A stretch of 42,625 nt of DNA, taken from NCBI GenBank assembly GCA_015494075.1, contig WGBX01000149.1, positions 1 through 42,625 of the forward strand, in the 5' to 3' direction. This stretch comes from Flavobacteriaceae bacterium (GTDB lineage Bacteria; Bacteroidota; Bacteroidia; Flavobacteriales; Flavobacteriaceae). Of this stretch, positions 331 through 27,047 are shown piece after piece (the stretch's first letter is position 1; every line of letters starts with the position of its first letter). The notes beneath the pieces were generated by a model. That model made no database searches and was not told where the DNA came from. It saw only the letters and a program-made list of their open reading frames with translations. Position numbers and translations under genes: made by a program.

Positions 331-1506
331 ATGAAGCCATTAGAAAAAAAATTAGCAGAATACCGCATTCCACAAATGTTTATGGAGCAAGGGATTTATC
401 CTTTTTATCATCCGATAGAAACAGGACAAGATACTGAAGTTATTTTGCGCGGAAAAAAAACTTTAATGTTTGGCTCAAACAGTTATTTGGGACTAACGCA
501 ACATCCAGAAATTATAGAAGCTGGTAAAAAAGCCTTAGACAAATATGGTACAGGAGCTTCCGGATCACGTTTAATGAATGGAAATTTGGATTTGCATGAA
601 AAATTAGAACAAGAGTTAGCTGATTTTGTAGGTAAAGAAGCTGCTACGGTTTTTAGTACGGGATTTCAATCAAATCTGGGTAGTATAGCTGCTTTGGCCG
701 GTCGGAATGATTATATATTGTTAGACGAAAAAAATCACGCATCTATCATTGAAGGTACTCGCCTGTCTTTTGCCAGAGTACTGAAATACAAGCATAATGA
801 TATGCAAGATTTAGAGAAAAAACTCCAATCGTTAGATCAAGATCGTATTATTTTGATTGTAATGGACGGTATTTTCAGCATGGAAGGTGATATTGCACCT
901 TTAGATCAAATTACCGATTTGGCAGACAAGTATAATGCGTCTGTTTATGTTGACGATGCGCATGCATTAGGCGTTTTGGGTAAAAGTGGCGCAGGCACAG
1001 CTGAACATTTTGGTGTTACCGACAAAGTTGACATTATCATGGGAACCTTTAGTAAATCATTAGCCTCATTAGGAGGGTTTGTTGCCGGTAGTAGAGATGC
1101 TATTAATTATTTAAAACACAACGCCCGAGCATTACTTTTTAGTGCTAGTATTCCACCGGCGTCGGCAGCTACAGTTTTAAAAGCTCTTGAAATTATCAAA
1201 CGTGAACCCGAACGCATTGGTCGTTTATGGGAAAATACCAATTATGCTAAAAAATTATTAGTTGACAATGGATTTGATATAGGTGAAAGCACAACACCCA
1301 TAATTCCTATTCATGTTGGTGATGATATTAAAACATATCAGTTAGCCACCTTAATGCTTCAAGATGGTGTGTATGTCAATCCGGTAGTTCATCCGGCTGT
1401 TGAAAAGGGAAAAGCTATCTTGCGATATTCATTAATGGCAACGCATACCAAGGCGCAGATAGACCGCTCTATTGATAGTTTGATCAGATCAAGTAAAAAG
1501 TTGTAA
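331..1506 (+). CDS. spt: Serine palmitoyltransferase (alpha-oxoamine synthase)
   Basis: This PLP enzyme condenses serine with a long-chain acyl thioester to 3-ketosphinganine, the first step of sphingolipid synthesis. The 391 residues match the soluble bacterial enzyme (about 400). Visible landmarks are MFGSNSYLGL (46-55), H136 that would stack on PLP, D208 and H211 in VDDAH, and the Schiff-base lysine K242 in GTFSKSLASLGG. The spacings H136-D208-K242 (72 and 34 residues) equal those I know for the Sphingomonas enzyme (H159, D231, K265). From memory the sequence is closest to the Sphingobacterium multivorum enzyme, for example GTFSKSLASLGGFVAG followed by FLKHNAR-like residues. It heads a five-gene cluster. 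A different oxoamine synthase could not be excluded by motifs alone, but the overall match and the neighbours favour this call. Confidence 0.9.
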   Translation: MKPLEKKLAEYRIPQMFMEQGIYPFYHPIETGQDTEVILRGKKTLMFGSNSYLGLTQHPEIIEAGKKALDKYGTGASGSRLMNGNLDLHEKLEQELADFVGKEAATVFSTGFQSNLGSIAALAGRNDYILLDEKNHASIIEGTRLSFARVLKYKHNDMQDLEKKLQSLDQDRIILIVMDGIFSMEGDIAPLDQITDLADKYNASVYVDDAHALGVLGKSGAGTAEHFGVTDKVDIIMGTFSKSLASLGGFVAGSRDAINYLKHNARALLFSASIPPASAATVLKALEIIKREPERIGRLWENTNYAKKLLVDNGFDIGESTTPIIPIHVGDDIKTYQLATLMLQDGVYVNPVVHPAVEKGKAILRYSLMATHTKAQIDRSIDSLIRSSKKL

Positions 1507-1527
1507 TTTTTTATTAAAAACAGGCCT

Positions 1528-2655
1528 ATGGCATCCATCGAAATTAAAGAAGTTCAATCTAAAAAAGATTTAAAAAAGTTTATTTCTTTTCCAGACCAAC
1601 TTTATAAAGATAATCCTTATCGGGTGCCACCCTTGCATACCTTTGAATATTCAACTTTAGACAAAACCAAAAATCCGGCTTTTGAATTTTGCGATGCTAA
1701 ATATTGGCTAGCTTACCGTGATGGTGAAATCGTTGGCCGTGTTGCCGGTATTATTAATCATAAATCCAATGAAATATGGAATGAAAAAAATGTCCGTTTC
1801 GGATGGATAGATTTTATAGAAGACCAGACAGTAGCCGAAGCATTGTTGAATAAAGTAACTGAATGGGGAAAATCGCAAGGGATGTCAGGTATTCATGGCC
1901 CTTTGGGTTTTTCGGATATGGATCTGGAAGGTATGTTAGTTGAAGGTTTTGATGAGCTATCAACACAAGCCGAAATATATAATTATCCGTATTATCCTAA
2001 ATTTATGGAAAATTTAAATTTCCATAAAGATACAGATTGGTTGCAAATGGAGTTAGAACTGCATATGAATGAAGTCCCGCCTAAAATAAGACGAATTTCA
2101 AAATTGGTTCAACAAAAATATGGTTTAAGATATAAGAATTTTAAAAGCGCCAAACAAATAAAACCTTATGTACAACAACTATTTGAACTGCTTAACCTAT
2201 CTTATAAAGATTTGTATGGGTTTGTTCCGTTAAGCCAAAAACAAATAGATTATTTTACCAAAATGTATTTTGATATGGTCAACCCTAAATATGTTGGAAT
2301 GGTGGTTGATAAAGATGATAAATTAGTCGGATTTGGTTTAGGCATTCTGTCCTTATCAAAAGCTATGCAAAAAGCCAAAGGCAAAATGTTACCTTTTGGT
2401 TGGTTTTATTTACTTAAGGCAATGTATTACAACGATACCATAGATCTGCTTTTACATGCCGTTCATCCGGATTACCAAGGTAAAGGTGTGCCTGCTATAT
2501 TTTATGAAAATATGACCCAAGCTTGTATTGATAATGGCGTTACTAAAGCTATTACCAGCCATATTTTGGAAGACAATAAACCCTCATTACAAATGTTTAA
2601 GAATTTTAAACACCGTCAGCATATGCGCCGAAGAATCTATGCCAAAGAAATTTAA
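1528..2655 (+). CDS. Two-part GNAT-like acyltransferase; candidate bacterial ceramide synthase
   Basis: The 375-residue protein has two GNAT-like halves. The first (about 1-180) contains YWLAYRDGEIVGRVAGI and the conserved stretch GIHGPLGFSDMDLEG. The second (about 200-375) holds the acyl-CoA loop HPDYQGKGVPAIFYE, with QGKG at 317-320. It starts 21 bases after the serine palmitoyltransferase gene. In Caulobacter a GNAT-fold protein encoded near spt (bCerS) N-acylates the sphingoid base. The same role is inferred here from fold and neighbourhood, not from a sequence match I can demonstrate. Homologues are often annotated only as GNAT N-acetyltransferase. Confidence 0.65.
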   Translation: MASIEIKEVQSKKDLKKFISFPDQLYKDNPYRVPPLHTFEYSTLDKTKNPAFEFCDAKYWLAYRDGEIVGRVAGIINHKSNEIWNEKNVRFGWIDFIEDQTVAEALLNKVTEWGKSQGMSGIHGPLGFSDMDLEGMLVEGFDELSTQAEIYNYPYYPKFMENLNFHKDTDWLQMELELHMNEVPPKIRRISKLVQQKYGLRYKNFKSAKQIKPYVQQLFELLNLSYKDLYGFVPLSQKQIDYFTKMYFDMVNPKYVGMVVDKDDKLVGFGLGILSLSKAMQKAKGKMLPFGWFYLLKAMYYNDTIDLLLHAVHPDYQGKGVPAIFYENMTQACIDNGVTKAITSHILEDNKPSLQMFKNFKHRQHMRRRIYAKEI

Positions 2656-2669
2656 GTTGAAGGAAAAAA

Positions 2670-3572
2670 ATGATGACATTTTATAAAAAATTGAGCTTAG
2701 TGGACGTGGTTAACTTAATTTTTTGGTTAGCCATTTTCATTTTTTATATCATTAGTTTTAACCAATCCGCTTACAAATTACATGGTTTTTTGTTATTAGC
2801 CGGTTTGGCTTTTTTTTTAGGAGCGGTTATAAAACTTAGATCTAAAAAACAATTAAATAAAGCCGAAAAATATCTTTTGTTATTTTATCCGGCCATTTTT
2901 TTAATAATGATATTCGATGGTATTCATTTGGTTTTACCATATATTAATTCAAATGTATATGATAAAGAATTATACCAAATTGATTATAGGTTACTAGGAG
3001 TTAATCCTACGGTTTGGATTGAAAATTTTATCAATCCTTATTTGACAGAATTTATGTACCTCTTATATTTTTTCTATTTTCCTATGCCTTTAATTATTTT
3101 GGGATATTTATACAAAACCAAAAAATATAAAGCTTTAGACAAAGCATTAGTGTTTTTGTTTGTAACATATTATGGTGCGTATTTGATGTATTTTTTGGTG
3201 CCGGCTCTCGGTCCGAGATTTTATCCTGAATTAGTATCGCAGCAAAAGGTATCTTTGAATGGTTTATGGTTAACGGATCTTATTCGTAATACAATTAGCT
3301 CATTAGAACATAACAAATTTGATGCTTTTCCAAGTTTACATGCAGCTATTACCTTGGCAACAGTCATTATTGTAGCCCAATATAAAAAAAAATGGTTATG
3401 GTTTTTTGTACCTGTACTTATCGGTATTTTTATATCTTTGATTTATTGTCGCTATCATTATTTTATCGATATGATTGCGGGAGTAATTTGGACGTTAATT
3501 GCTTTTTGGTTAACTGAAAAATTTTATGATAAACTGTATCAAAAATATTTTGTCAGTTTTATTCATGATTAA
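2670..3572 (+). CDS. PAP2-family membrane enzyme, Aur1-like; candidate phosphosphingolipid head-group enzyme
   Basis: An integral membrane protein of 300 residues with about six hydrophobic segments. The PAP2 active-site elements are readable: GPRFYP (181-186), FPSLHA with PSLH at 221-224, and CRYHYFID, giving R261, H263 and D267 (HxxxD). The PSLH form instead of PSGH is typical of the Aur1/PAP2_3 group, which includes inositol-phosphoceramide synthases. It lies 14 bases downstream of the GNAT gene. It could transfer a phospho-head-group to ceramide or dephosphorylate a lipid phosphate; the choice is not settled by sequence. The ORF begins ATGATG; the second ATG at 2673 is an equally possible start. 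Confidence 0.7.
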   Translation: MMTFYKKLSLVDVVNLIFWLAIFIFYIISFNQSAYKLHGFLLLAGLAFFLGAVIKLRSKKQLNKAEKYLLLFYPAIFLIMIFDGIHLVLPYINSNVYDKELYQIDYRLLGVNPTVWIENFINPYLTEFMYLLYFFYFPMPLIILGYLYKTKKYKALDKALVFLFVTYYGAYLMYFLVPALGPRFYPELVSQQKVSLNGLWLTDLIRNTISSLEHNKFDAFPSLHAAITLATVIIVAQYKKKWLWFFVPVLIGIFISLIYCRYHYFIDMIAGVIWTLIAFWLTEKFYDKLYQKYFVSFIHD

Positions 3573-3593
3573 TTTAATAAAAGCTTAGTACAT

Positions 3594-4298
3594 ATGAAAA
3601 AAAAATGGTTTCAGTGGTTAGATTTTGACCGGCAAGATATTCATATCTATATAATTTTACTTAGCGCACCTGTTTTATTAACCATTTATCGTTATCATGC
3701 TTATCCCGGTTTTTTCACGCCTAATATAGATTTTATTTCAGTTGCTGACCAAAATTTGAGTATCAATCAATTTTTTCGCTTTTTTGGGCTATTCTTTGTT
3801 TTGCCTGCACTTTATATCAAATTCTTTATGCATAAGTCTTTGAAAGATTTCGGGCTGGGATTAGGCGATATTAAAATGGGTTTAAAAATTTTAAGTTTCT
3901 TCATTCCTTTGGTGGTTATTACCATTTATTATGCTGCTAAAATGCCGGATTTGCGCACGGAATATCCATTAGCCAAATCTTTATTGACAAATCAATCTCA
4001 TTTGGGAGTTTATGAGTTATTTTACATTCTTTTTTACTACATTGCTTGGGAATTTTACTTTCGTGGGTTTCTACTCTTTGGACTCAAAGATCGTTTTGGC
4101 GCTTTTAATGCAGTACTGATTCAGACCATTTCATCTTGCTTGGTACATATAGGAAAACCCGAAGGGGAAATTATCGGTTCTATTATAGCAGGCGTTATTT
4201 TTGGTCTGATTGCTTTACGCACCAAATCTATTTGGTATGTATTTATCATCCATGCTTTAATTGGAGTATTAACGGATTTATATATAATTTATACATAA
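3594..4298 (+). CDS. CPBP-family (CAAX-like) intramembrane protease homologue
   Basis: A 234-residue membrane protein with about six hydrophobic segments. The CPBP motifs are present: E153-x-x-x-R157 within WEFYFRGFL, H185 in CLVHIG, and a late HALIG with H221. The usual double glutamate EExxxR is reduced to a single one, WExxxR, as occurs in some subgroups. The family includes Rce1-like prenyl-protein proteases and bacteriocin immunity proteins. It sits between the PAP2 enzyme and the reductase with gaps of 21 and 13 bases, so it is likely co-transcribed. What it does in a lipid gene cluster is unknown. Confidence 0.7.
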   Translation: MKKKWFQWLDFDRQDIHIYIILLSAPVLLTIYRYHAYPGFFTPNIDFISVADQNLSINQFFRFFGLFFVLPALYIKFFMHKSLKDFGLGLGDIKMGLKILSFFIPLVVITIYYAAKMPDLRTEYPLAKSLLTNQSHLGVYELFYILFYYIAWEFYFRGFLLFGLKDRFGAFNAVLIQTISSCLVHIGKPEGEIIGSIIAGVIFGLIALRTKSIWYVFIIHALIGVLTDLYIIYT

Positions 4299-4311
4299 AA
4301 AAATACCTTTC

Positions 4312-5298
4312 ATGAATATACTGGTAACCGGCGCCAATGGTTTTATTGGTAGCAATTTGGTAAAACGTCTTGTGTCAGAAGGACATACCGTGAAGAGTTT
4401 GGTGAGAAAAACCTCAGATTTAAGTTATTTGAAGGGTGTTTCTACTGAAATAGTATATGGTGATATTGTCAATACTGATAGTTTAAATGCCGCCTTGCAA
4501 GATGTTGAGCAAGTATTTCATGTAGCCGGATTGGCAGCAGACTGGGGACCGTATGAACTTTTTTATCATATAAACTTTGTAGGAACTAAAAATGTAGCGG
4601 AAGCAGCTGCCAATTGTGGTGTTAGTAAAATGATTTATATAAGTACGGTGGCTTTTCATGGTTTTGGTAAAACCAATATGACAGAGACATCGCCTATCGC
4701 TAAAAAATTGATTCCATATGCTCAAACCAAATATATGGCAGAACAATGGCTTTGGCATTTCCAACAACAAACAAATTTAAAAATTACAGCGGTACGCCCC
4801 GGTAATGTGTATGGGGTTAATGATCGTACTTTTATGCTTAAATATTTAGAAGCTATGCAAACCGGAAAATTTATGGAAATTAATAAAGGAAGAAGTAAAA
4901 CTTGTCCGGTTTTTATCGATAATTTGATTGATATTATTACTTTGGTCAGTCGTGATGATAAAGCTAATGGTCAAGCGTTTATAGCTACGGATGGATTGGA
5001 TATTAATTGGCATACATTTAATTCGAAATTAGCTGATGCCATGAAACTGAAATTACCAAAAGTATCTATCCCTTATTCAGTAGCTTATTCAATTGCAAAA
5101 ATCTATTATGGCATTCACAAAACTTTAGGCCTAAAATCTGAACCTTTTTTAACCCCTTATCGTATTAATAATGGCGGGAAAGACTATCATTTTAGTATTC
5201 AAAAATTACAAGAATATTTTGATTACAAGCCACAAACAGATTTAGATACCGCCATACAAAAAACGGTTAGGTGGTATAAGTCTATACCTCAAATATAA
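4312..5298 (+). CDS. NAD(P)-dependent epimerase/3-beta-HSD-like reductase; candidate ceramide reductase (CerR-like)
   Basis: An extended short-chain dehydrogenase of 328 residues. It has an N-terminal Rossmann motif TGANGFIGS (6-14), an active-site serine near S111 and the catalytic pair Y136-x-x-x-K140 in YAQTK. The middle part (VRPGNVYG, then PVFIDNLID) matches the 3-beta-HSD/nucleoside-diphosphate-sugar epimerase branch. Caulobacter CerR, which reduces the 3-keto group of the sphingoid product, belongs to this branch. Position as the last gene of the cluster supports the same job here. A sugar-modifying role cannot be excluded. Confidence 0.7.
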   Translation: MNILVTGANGFIGSNLVKRLVSEGHTVKSLVRKTSDLSYLKGVSTEIVYGDIVNTDSLNAALQDVEQVFHVAGLAADWGPYELFYHINFVGTKNVAEAAANCGVSKMIYISTVAFHGFGKTNMTETSPIAKKLIPYAQTKYMAEQWLWHFQQQTNLKITAVRPGNVYGVNDRTFMLKYLEAMQTGKFMEINKGRSKTCPVFIDNLIDIITLVSRDDKANGQAFIATDGLDINWHTFNSKLADAMKLKLPKVSIPYSVAYSIAKIYYGIHKTLGLKSEPFLTPYRINNGGKDYHFSIQKLQEYFDYKPQTDLDTAIQKTVRWYKSIPQI

Positions 5299-5349: not shown

Positions 5350-5381
5350 TTGACACAATCGGCTTATCTTTTGTATTTTTG
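5350..5381 (+). promoter_or_regulatory. Bacteroidota-type promoter of the small membrane protein-mutL operon
   Basis: TTG at 5350-5352 and TATTTTTG at 5374-5381 are separated by 21 bases and match TTG-N17-23-TAnnTTTG. Transcription would start near 5388, giving a very short leader before the ATG at 5396. Confidence 0.7.
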
Positions 5382-5395
5382 TAAAAAGCCGAATC

Positions 5396-5665
5396 ATGAG
5401 TTCATTTTTTAAATTAAACAGAAATAAAAAATTTTCTTATACGCCTCGTTACTATGACGAACGTAAAGAAAGATTGGAAAACCTCAAAAAACAATACGGT
5501 GAGGAAGAGACAACCGCCGAACAACGTATTCGCGGCAAATTTAAGCGCCCGCGTAAACAAACTATGCCGGGAATTTTTTCAGGTGCTACTTTGCGGACCT
5601 TTTTAATCTTAGGCATCCTCGTTTTGGTTGTTTATTATTTATTACGTAAATATGATTTAATTTAA
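5396..5665 (+). CDS. Small conserved membrane protein upstream of mutL
   Basis: An 89-residue protein with a highly charged, basic N-terminal two thirds and one hydrophobic membrane segment near the C-terminus (about 65-84), ending with a short basic tail. Its stop overlaps the mutL start (TAATG), so the two are translationally linked. A protein like this commonly precedes mutL in Bacteroidota. No function is known to me. Confidence 0.75.
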   Translation: MSSFFKLNRNKKFSYTPRYYDERKERLENLKKQYGEEETTAEQRIRGKFKRPRKQTMPGIFSGATLRTFLILGILVLVVYYLLRKYDLI

Positions 5666-25787: not shown

Positions 25788-27047
25788 TTATCCCCGCATT
25801 TTTTTTATAAATTCTTCACCAATTCTTTTATAAACTCCGCTTTCTAATTTTTGTCTGATTTCAGAAAAAGCTTTTACGGTTATATCAATATCTTCTTGTG
25901 TATGTACAGCCGTTGGAATTAAACGTAAGAGAATCATTCCTTTAGGTATTACCGGATAAATAACGATAGAGGTAAATACGTTATATTTTTCACGTAAATC
26001 TTTAACCATAACCATGGCTTCGGGAACACTTCCTTGTAAATATACCGGCGTAATTACAGTATTGGTAGAGCCTAAATCAAAGCCGGCATCACGCAAACCT
26101 TTTTGTAAACTAGTCGCGATAGCCCATAATTTTTCTTTTAATTCGGGGCGCGTTTTTAATAATTCTAATCTTTTTAAAGCTCCTTCAACCATAGGCATAG
26201 GTAACGATTTGGCAAAGACTTGCGAACGCATATTGTATTTTAAATACTGAATAAGATCTTTGTCTCCTGCAACAAATGCACCGATTCCGGCCATCGATTT
26301 TGCAAAGGTGGCAAAATAAATATCAATATCATCTTGTATACCTTGCTCTTCACCTGCACCTGCACCCGTTTTGCCTAGGGTGCCAAATCCGTGCGCATCA
26401 TCTACTAACAAACGAAAATTATATTGCTCTTTTAAAGCAACAATTTCTTTGAGTTTGCCTTGTTCTCCACGCATGCCAAAAACACCTTCTGTAATAACTA
26501 AAATACCACCACCATTTTTTTTAGCAACATTAGTAGCACGTTCTAACATTTTTTCTAAACTTTCAACATCATTGTGTTGAAAAGTAAAGCGTTTGCCTTG
26601 ATGTAAACGGCAGCCATCAATAATGCTGGCATGAGAATCGCTGTCATAAACAATAACATCTGATTTATTAACCAAACTATCTATTATAGAAACATTTCCT
26701 TGATATCCAAAGTTAAGTAAATAGGCAGCTTCTTTATTGACAAAATCAGCCAGTTCTTTTTCTAATTGCTCATGTTTTTCAGTTTGTCCAGACATTGCCC
26801 GGGCCCCCATAGGATAAGCCATTCCCCATTTGGTTGCCGATGCAGCATCGGTCTTTTTGACTTCAGGATGGTTGGCAAGGCCTAAATAATTATTGATACT
26901 CCAAGTAATCATTTCCTTACCATTAAATTTCATTCTATTTGATATCTGTCCTTCAAATTTAGGAAAAACAAAATAGCCTTCGGCGACGTCAGCATAATTT
27001 CCTAAAGGACCTTTATCGTTTTTAAACTTTTCAAATAAATCTTTCAT
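25788..27047 (-). CDS. Alpha-oxoamine synthase family enzyme (cysteate- or serine-acyltransferase type)
   Basis: A 419-residue fold-type-I PLP enzyme. Landmarks are WSINNYLGLANHPEV, H139 in DSHASIIDG, D216 and H219 in LVDDAHGFG, and the PLP lysine K250 in FATFAKSMAGIGAF. The family makes 2-amino-3-oxo acids from an amino acid and an acyl thioester. It is clearly different from the serine palmitoyltransferase at 331, with TFAKSMAGIG instead of TFSKSLASLG. A close homologue is common in flavobacteria. In Flavobacterium johnsoniae a member of this family was shown to be the cysteate-fatty acyltransferase for capnine (sulfonolipid) synthesis; this is one likely role. Glycine acetyltransferase is another option. 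I cannot decide the substrate from motifs. Confidence 0.8.
   Translation of the reverse strand: MKDLFEKFKNDKGPLGNYADVAEGYFVFPKFEGQISNRMKFNGKEMITWSINNYLGLANHPEVKKTDAASATKWGMAYPMGARAMSGQTEKHEQLEKELADFVNKEAAYLLNFGYQGNVSIIDSLVNKSDVIVYDSDSHASIIDGCRLHQGKRFTFQHNDVESLEKMLERATNVAKKNGGGILVITEGVFGMRGEQGKLKEIVALKEQYNFRLLVDDAHGFGTLGKTGAGAGEEQGIQDDIDIYFATFAKSMAGIGAFVAGDKDLIQYLKYNMRSQVFAKSLPMPMVEGALKRLELLKTRPELKEKLWAIATSLQKGLRDAGFDLGSTNTVITPVYLQGSVPEAMVMVKDLREKYNVFTSIVIYPVIPKGMILLRLIPTAVHTQEDIDITVKAFSEIRQKLESGVYKRIGEEFIKKMRG

Follow-up and report, generated by a model that had tools for sequence, protein, structure and literature searches.

A five-gene cluster probably directing (dihydro)ceramide synthesis in a metagenome-assembled genome of the Flavobacteriaceae

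The DNA described here, referred to below as the window, is a stretch of 42,625 nucleotides from Flavobacteriaceae bacterium (GCA_015494075.1, contig WGBX01000149.1). It corresponds to contig C149 of a metagenome-assembled genome (MAG), G000, which comprises 2.16 Mb in 187 contigs and belongs to a genus of Flavobacteriales. Five open reading frames (ORFs) lie on its plus strand and encode, in this order, serine palmitoyltransferase (SPT; 331..1506, 391 aa), a tandem-GNAT N-acyltransferase with a probable role in the ceramide synthase step (1528..2655, 375 aa), an Aur1-like PAP2 membrane protein that probably transfers a phospho-head group to (dihydro)ceramide (2670..3572, 300 aa), a CPBP (Rce1-like) membrane protein (3594..4298, 234 aa), and an extended short-chain dehydrogenase/reductase (SDR), the probable 3-keto reductase (4312..5298, 328 aa). 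All five frames are open and separated by only 21, 14, 21, and 13 bp, and each product passes the curated cut-off of a Pfam family (Aminotran_1_2, Acetyltransf_1, PAP2_3, Rce1-like (CPBP), and Epimerase, respectively). We consider it likely that the five genes form an operon whose products make (dihydro)ceramides with a phosphate head group de novo, with more confidence in the pathway as a whole than in its single steps. A preliminary description of the locus had proposed a compact, closely spaced unit containing SPT, a GNAT-like acyltransferase, an Aur1-like PAP2 enzyme, and an added CPBP membrane protein; these points have stood up, the third of them as a matter of fold. The arrangement is not due to chance and recurs in relatives: all five genes are found together in genome G654 (locus L089) of the same genus, and GNAT-PAP2-CPBP-SDR recur in the distant MAG Bacteroidetes bacterium SZUA-53 (locus L181).

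SPT forms 3-ketosphinganine from L-serine and a fatty acyl thioester. Identification of the first cluster enzyme as SPT is well supported by its sequence, which aligns over residues 2-390, nearly the full length, with NF047600, the curated equivalog model for SPT of Bacteroidota (628.5 bits; cut-off 640). The best matches in a sequence search of the PDB are the SPTs 3a2b and 8guh (E ~4e-150; 503.6 bits to 3a2b), and the next enzyme family follows at 9.3e-93 and 314.8 bits (8s1y). In this search KBL, BioF, and cysteate acyltransferase (28eh; 257.1 bits, 3.1e-75) are all more distant from the protein than the solved SPTs are. Residues H136, D208, H211, and K242 are invariant across the 13 rows of alignment A1, and the pyridoxal phosphate lysine with the active-site His/Asp pattern is what we take to be the signature of alpha-oxoamine synthases. 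About 20 kb from the cluster, on the minus strand, lies a gene (25788..27047) whose product matches cysteate C-fatty acyltransferase, the entry enzyme of sulfonolipids (28eh, 8.8e-195, and 7u7h, 2.9e-171, vs. 7.4e-70 for SPT 3a2b, in the PDB sequence search). This neighbor, a related GNAT paralogue on contig C139 of the same genome, and PAP2-GNAT pairs at loci devoid of SPT in other genomes of the order would suit a cluster that serves sulfonolipids or another aminolipid instead of ceramides. Such a role appears highly improbable, given the SPT type of the first enzyme (the bit scores above to 3a2b and 28eh). Moreover, because the cysteate enzyme is near universal, being present in 107 of 119 genomes of a class sample, whereas SPT is rare in the phylum, the cluster is not tied to it. 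The cysteate enzyme also occurs in 10 of the 13 genomes of the genus, which are 68 to 99% complete, so that here and below absences may reflect incompleteness. The organism probably produces sulfonolipids as well as sphingolipids.

With the threshold set at E <= 1e-125, under which weaker SPT genes would escape, SPT was found in 2 of 196 genomes of the order and in 19 of 392 of the phylum, the genome of the window being included in both samples. Among the matches listed, the nearest relative of this SPT beyond the genus belongs to a MAG of Bacteroidales (L127; 70% identical), with support of 99 in a quick tree built from matches longer than 350 aa with no internal stops. Because its nearest relative outside the genus is found there, acquisition of the SPT gene by horizontal transfer is suggested by the sequences. 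A plasmid search gave SPT matches all below 60% identity, which were not used, and no homologue of the SDR at E <= 1e-40 or of the CPBP protein at E <= 1e-10.

The second product contains PF00583 (E 5.9e-12), and its predicted structure (pLDDT 90.9) has tandem-repeat GNATs as the best matches in the PDB. A GNAT of this family adjoins SPT (within 400 bp) in 46 of 79 named Bacteroidota loci, a reductase lies within 6.5 kb in 36, and both are present in 34; neither was found within these distances in 31, including the Bacteroides-titled loci L187, L191, L194, and L203. These named loci come from the 80 top-ranking of 594 confirmed SPT matches, a capped list, less one dropped for too little flanking sequence, and thus represent the nearest SPT genes rather than a random sample. 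Within the genus, each of the 11 genomes with a cluster-type GNAT has SPT beside it, with PAP2 next in 10 of them. Membership of the second enzyme in an SPT-adjacent family of GNAT acyltransferases is accordingly well supported, and it probably performs the ceramide synthase step. Trees of GNAT proteins (members longer than 300 aa from 40 fetched loci, plus 10 selected genus copies besides that of the window) contain two clades with SPT-adjacent members, and the window GNAT falls in the larger, mixed one. A paralogue ~38% identical to the cluster GNAT is encoded elsewhere in the same genome (L077, G000:C139, 2655-3758), and paralogues of that type occur in 11 of the 13 genus genomes. The presence of the cysteate enzyme was considered as an explanation of this paralogue and dropped, because an enzyme found in 107 of 119 class-sample genomes provides no contrast. 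In the loci of 10 relatives the paralogue adjoins an ORF of 640-660 aa, which in the one copy scanned is an M1 peptidase with a T9SS tail. Pairs of PAP2 and GNAT genes were also observed in five genomes of the order (L078-L082), with no SPT at those loci.

The fifth product matches PF01370 (E 1e-37) and PF01073 (E 3.8e-31) and has the pattern of extended SDRs, with T6-G7, G10, G13, S111, Y136, and K140 conserved without exception in alignment A4 (10 rows); TGxxGxxG and Ser-Tyr-Lys are presumably the residues typical of this group. The preliminary description had called it a CerR-like reductase, a label that does not hold as written. The SDR tree is divided by a 97/98 split. One side comprises the window protein and eight genus copies, which form a clade (support 100/99), and two further SDRs from the genus; the opposite side, a clade of 15, includes SDRs encoded beside SPT-GNAT in other Bacteroidia as well as a second reductase of the same genome (G000:C159:5816-6799). 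A tree with the L181 sequence added shows the same exclusion from the SPT-linked clade (SH-aLRT 98), and both trees rule out the window SDR as an orthologue of the SPT-linked reductase. It is still the probable reductase of this route, acting on the 3-keto group, which would mean that SDRs of more than one lineage can carry out the reductase step. Alternatively, the window SDR may stand outside ceramide synthesis and act on another 3-oxo lipid, as OleD-type enzymes do, and the SPT-linked type on contig C159 may be the actual reductase. Among NCBIfam models the window SDR indeed scores best on 2-alkyl-3-oxoalkanoate reductases of OleD type (154 and 151.9 bits; cut-off 580), its gene is apart from the cluster in six of nine genus genomes, and the C159 reductase is encoded in a cluster (L097, 273-7353) with proteins identified by Pfam as CDP-alcohol transferase, myo-inositol-phosphate synthase (INO1), PgpA, GtrA, and DUF5686. 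However, in seven of the 11 SPT-GNAT genomes of the genus the window-type SDR is present but nothing matches the C159 reductase at E <= 1e-30, and in the distant L181 the SDR gene lies in one run with GNAT-PAP2-CPBP, so that this alternative is unlikely. As for reductases near lone SPT genes, in one such genome (G071) a reductase 40% identical lies ~40 kb from GNAT, and in another (G031) none was found in the roughly 100 kb examined.

The third product contains PF14378 (E 4.3e-23), and P221-S222-x-H224 and H263-Y264-x-x-D267 are invariant in the 14 rows of alignment A2. Its predicted structure (pLDDT 87) has as top two PDB matches 9vj4 and 9ivc, both AUR1 inositol phosphorylceramide synthase, and these are the only two of 83 matches with E <= 0.001 (TM 0.56-0.71). 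The model thus points to an Aur1-like fold, and the protein is probably a transferase of a phospho-head group onto (dihydro)ceramide. A phosphatase that removes phosphate from ceramide- or sphinganine-phosphate seems an improbable reading of the same protein, even though the motifs of the PAP2 superfamily are common to phosphatases and the structures of LpxE (6ebu) and other PAP2 phosphatases match the model at E 0.07 and worse, since both matches below the threshold are AUR1; in addition, a Pfam scan of the cluster detected no lipid-kinase-like gene, whereas such genes adjoin SPT, or are one small ORF away, in five other loci. By sequence, inositol-ceramide synthase can be ruled out for the putative head-group transferase of the window, which reaches 40.7 bits on NF052609 (AUR1/phosphoinositol dihydroceramide synthase; cut-off 480). 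Two PAP2 proteins from inositol clusters likewise fall below this cut-off, at 319.7 and 332.2 bits. The window protein is 20-23% identical to the inositol-type proteins and forms a separate branch in a tree with few well-supported inner branches.

INO1 was found in 2 of the 13 genus genomes and not in the other 11, some of which are incomplete. Because the PAP2 protein is far from the inositol type and INO1 is unmatched in most of the genus, the head group there is probably non-inositol, and phosphoethanolamine (PE) or phosphoglycerol is more likely than phosphoinositol. The genome of the window has INO1, provided that contig C159 belongs to it. At its end C159 encodes the N-terminal 102 residues of a protein similar to, and clustering with, the inositol-ceramide synthase of locus L098 (319.7 bits on NF052609), and the C159 set corresponds to the inositol lipid cluster BT_1522-BT_1526 of Bacteroides thetaiotaomicron as given in the accessible part of its description (PMC9246714). 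The same part of that source reports PE-dihydroceramide to be unaltered in a BT_1522 deletion strain, and therefore the PE step uses another enzyme. A further candidate head-group enzyme occurs in G071 (L206, 8066-10032), where a gene for a reductase similar to the SPT-linked clade overlaps a PAP2 gene; this PAP2 protein matches that of the window, not the inositol type, at E <= 1e-6. The DUF5686 protein is recurrent beside inositol-sphingolipid genes (L048-L053, L097) and possibly takes part in lipid transport to the outer membrane.

SPT-GNAT-PAP2 are found in 10 of the 13 genus genomes, including that of the window and two cut by contig ends, and CPBP comes next in seven; no CPBP follows PAP2 in G660, and no PAP2 follows GNAT in G661. 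The window-type SDR (76-100% identical) is present in nine of the 13, a weaker SDR match of some kind in all 13, and a reductase of the C159 type, belonging to the SPT-linked clade, in three. The 11 genomes with SPT-GNAT can be divided into seven with the window-type SDR only, two with the C159 type only (G661 and G662), one with both (that of the window), and one with neither (G657, 83% complete). The SDR gene adjoins CPBP in three genomes of the genus, namely that of the window, G654, and G652. Beyond the genus, L181 keeps the gene order GNAT-PAP2-CPBP-SDR on a single strand, with SPT transcribed divergently, and has identities to the window proteins of 28% for GNAT, 42% for PAP2, 64% for CPBP, and 60% for SDR. 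Since quick trees place the L181 SDR inside the window SDR clade (10 rows, SH-aLRT 99) and its GNAT inside the other GNAT clade (13 rows, SH-aLRT 100), PAP2, CPBP, and SDR appear to have travelled together in the company of a GNAT of another clade. The three genes PAP2-CPBP-SDR thus have the appearance of a cassette that brings in a different reductase together with the CPBP protein. It behaves as a unit that goes with SPT and either GNAT clade and, in this genus, is present mostly where the usual SPT-linked reductase is missing. The cassette also offers a candidate for a non-inositol head-group step.

The fourth product matches PF02517 (E 1.7e-11; 44.7 bits, above the Pfam cut-off of 22.4) and reaches 78.7 bits on the archaeomyxosortase MrtA model NF040590, below its cut-off of 200. 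E153, R157, H185, and H220 are invariant in the eight rows of alignment A3, with L181 included. In the window the protease motifs EExxxR and HxxxN take the form EFYFR and HALIG; the first Glu is retained along with the Arg and both His, but Phe and Gly replace the second Glu and the Asn, so that two of the published catalytic residues are missing. Two of the 80 named loci, L181 and L126 (the latter from a relative within the genus), have a match to it. Within the cassette the CPBP protein is conserved, and it is not a chance neighbor. MrtX, a CPBP myxosortase with a sorting role (PMC11980579), and LnsB, a CPBP-like protein with degenerate motifs that can serve lipid acylation (PMC7387801), are of the same fold family according to the available portions of both papers; the window protein differs from the MrtX type in its two missing catalytic residues. 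No C-terminal sorting tails that might be its targets were detected by a crude filter in 391 ORFs from the window and the genus loci L089-L120, some of which overlap, ORFs shorter than 150 aa or open at a contig end being left out. Among the papers listed by a literature search, none joins CPBP or CAAX proteases with sphingolipids, which is weak evidence of absence because subscription journals are mostly outside its reach. The cluster links a CPBP membrane protein with an operon for sphingolipids. It is only a guess that the protein acts as a membrane hydrolase or catalyzes a transfer step on the lipid product or a protein partner. A bolder and very doubtful proposal would be that PAP2-CPBP-SDR is a mobile cassette that takes the place of the usual ceramide reductase and contributes a new final step, in which the CPBP protein, akin by score to protein-sorting CPBP enzymes, uses the ceramide head group for the anchoring or processing of a surface molecule; this ceramide-based anchoring would have a loose parallel in the GPI anchors of eukaryotes.

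From the gene content and order, their recurrence, clade membership, and the predicted folds we infer each reaction, the order of reactions, and the head group as follows. SPT would condense serine with a fatty acyl thioester, the GNAT protein would add an amide-linked acyl chain, the SDR would reduce the 3-keto group, and the PAP2 protein would move a phospho-head group from a glycerophospholipid onto ceramide, with the CPBP protein as a putative conserved partner of the ceramide route. Very probably this is a variant of the known pathway, with familiar first steps, a reductase of another lineage, a non-inositol Aur1-like transferase, and a CPBP partner. The whole route from serine to a head-group-bearing ceramide, put forward conditionally in the preliminary description, is plausible, with a putative head group. 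In B. thetaiotaomicron, as far as the available text of PMC9246714 goes, BT_1522-BT_1526 together with the SPT BT_0870 likewise employ an AUR1-like PAP2 protein to add a head group to an SPT-initiated ceramide; that cluster carries inositol genes, whereas the window cluster has SPT, GNAT, and SDR instead. The SPT-GNAT-reductase(-INO1-PgpA-DUF5686-PAP2) loci of Mucilaginibacter, Pedobacter, Dyadobacter, Sphingobacterium, Taibaiella, and others resemble the window in that a GNAT belonging to the same broad family comes after SPT, often together with a reductase of the extended SDR superfamily. They differ from it in that the window reductase is of another clade, its PAP2 protein is not of inositol type, and, as noted above, a CPBP match is nearly absent from the named loci. 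The likeness to Caulobacter spt, bCerS, and cerR is in the predicted set of three activities; in the portions of PMC11087976 at hand, the published model has acylation before reduction, and CerR is described as NDUFA9-like and periplasmic. According to the available part of PMC11334938, genes of the spt, bCerS, and cerR types are often clustered in bacteria, but it repeats a statement that in Bacteroidota which make sphingolipids they do not lie near one another. The proximity of SPT, GNAT, and SDR genes in many other Bacteroidota loci limits this statement, if these are true functional counterparts.

Several observations weigh against this interpretation. The window SPT is 11.5 bits under the curated cut-off of NF047600, and the structures closest to the GNAT protein are acetyltransferases at 12-13% identity, so that its substrate is not settled by fold. 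Three inositol-ceramide synthases are among the 14 rows behind the PAP2 model and may have biased it toward the AUR1 fold. As for a strict operon, in the six genus genomes with a displaced SDR the gene lies beside one for ribonucleotide reductase (a Pfam name taken from one copy), ~7 kb from CPBP in G651 and G655 and on another contig in G656, G658, G659, and G660. The full cassette was found beyond the genus in one genome, L181, among the matches listed. Complementarity between the two reductases is weak, the chance of an overlap of one or none being 25/165 = 0.15 with genomes that are related, and since the numbers are also small it is a pattern, not proof. The genome of the window itself holds both reductases and the inositol cluster of C159, and for this reason its SDR may be redundant there. 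C159 could be misbinned: its G+C content is 0.306 vs. 0.314-0.356 in slices of other contigs, and its word-usage distance 0.0054 vs. 0.0021-0.0053, figures that neither prove nor exclude misbinning, the comparison slices having belonged to the reference pool, which favors them.

Some minor features of these loci can be added. A lipid-kinase-like gene (cluster c10, its family assigned from L056 and L081) lies beside a lone SPT gene in L056, L057, L060, L061, and L062 and is possibly of the dihydrosphingosine kinase type. An initial assignment of Porphyromonas gingivalis PG1348 as a PAP2 protein proved wrong, the accessible text describing it as a dihydrosphingosine kinase. Locus L142, from a MAG titled Williamsia sp., is a Bacteroidota-like SPT-GNAT-reductase-inositol locus and probably reflects a wrong name or a misbinned contig. 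Downstream of the ceramide cluster, a promoter-like match to TTG-N-TAnnTTTG, which we take to be the consensus, is present on the plus strand (5350..5381); a scan over 8.8 kb gave two matches vs. ~1 expected by chance, and this one is favored by position alone as a possible start of the next transcription unit. After a gap of 97 bp beyond the SDR gene comes a small ORF (5396-5665), which would be the first of that unit, followed by mutL and a gene for DNA polymerase III delta, these two assigned by Pfam.

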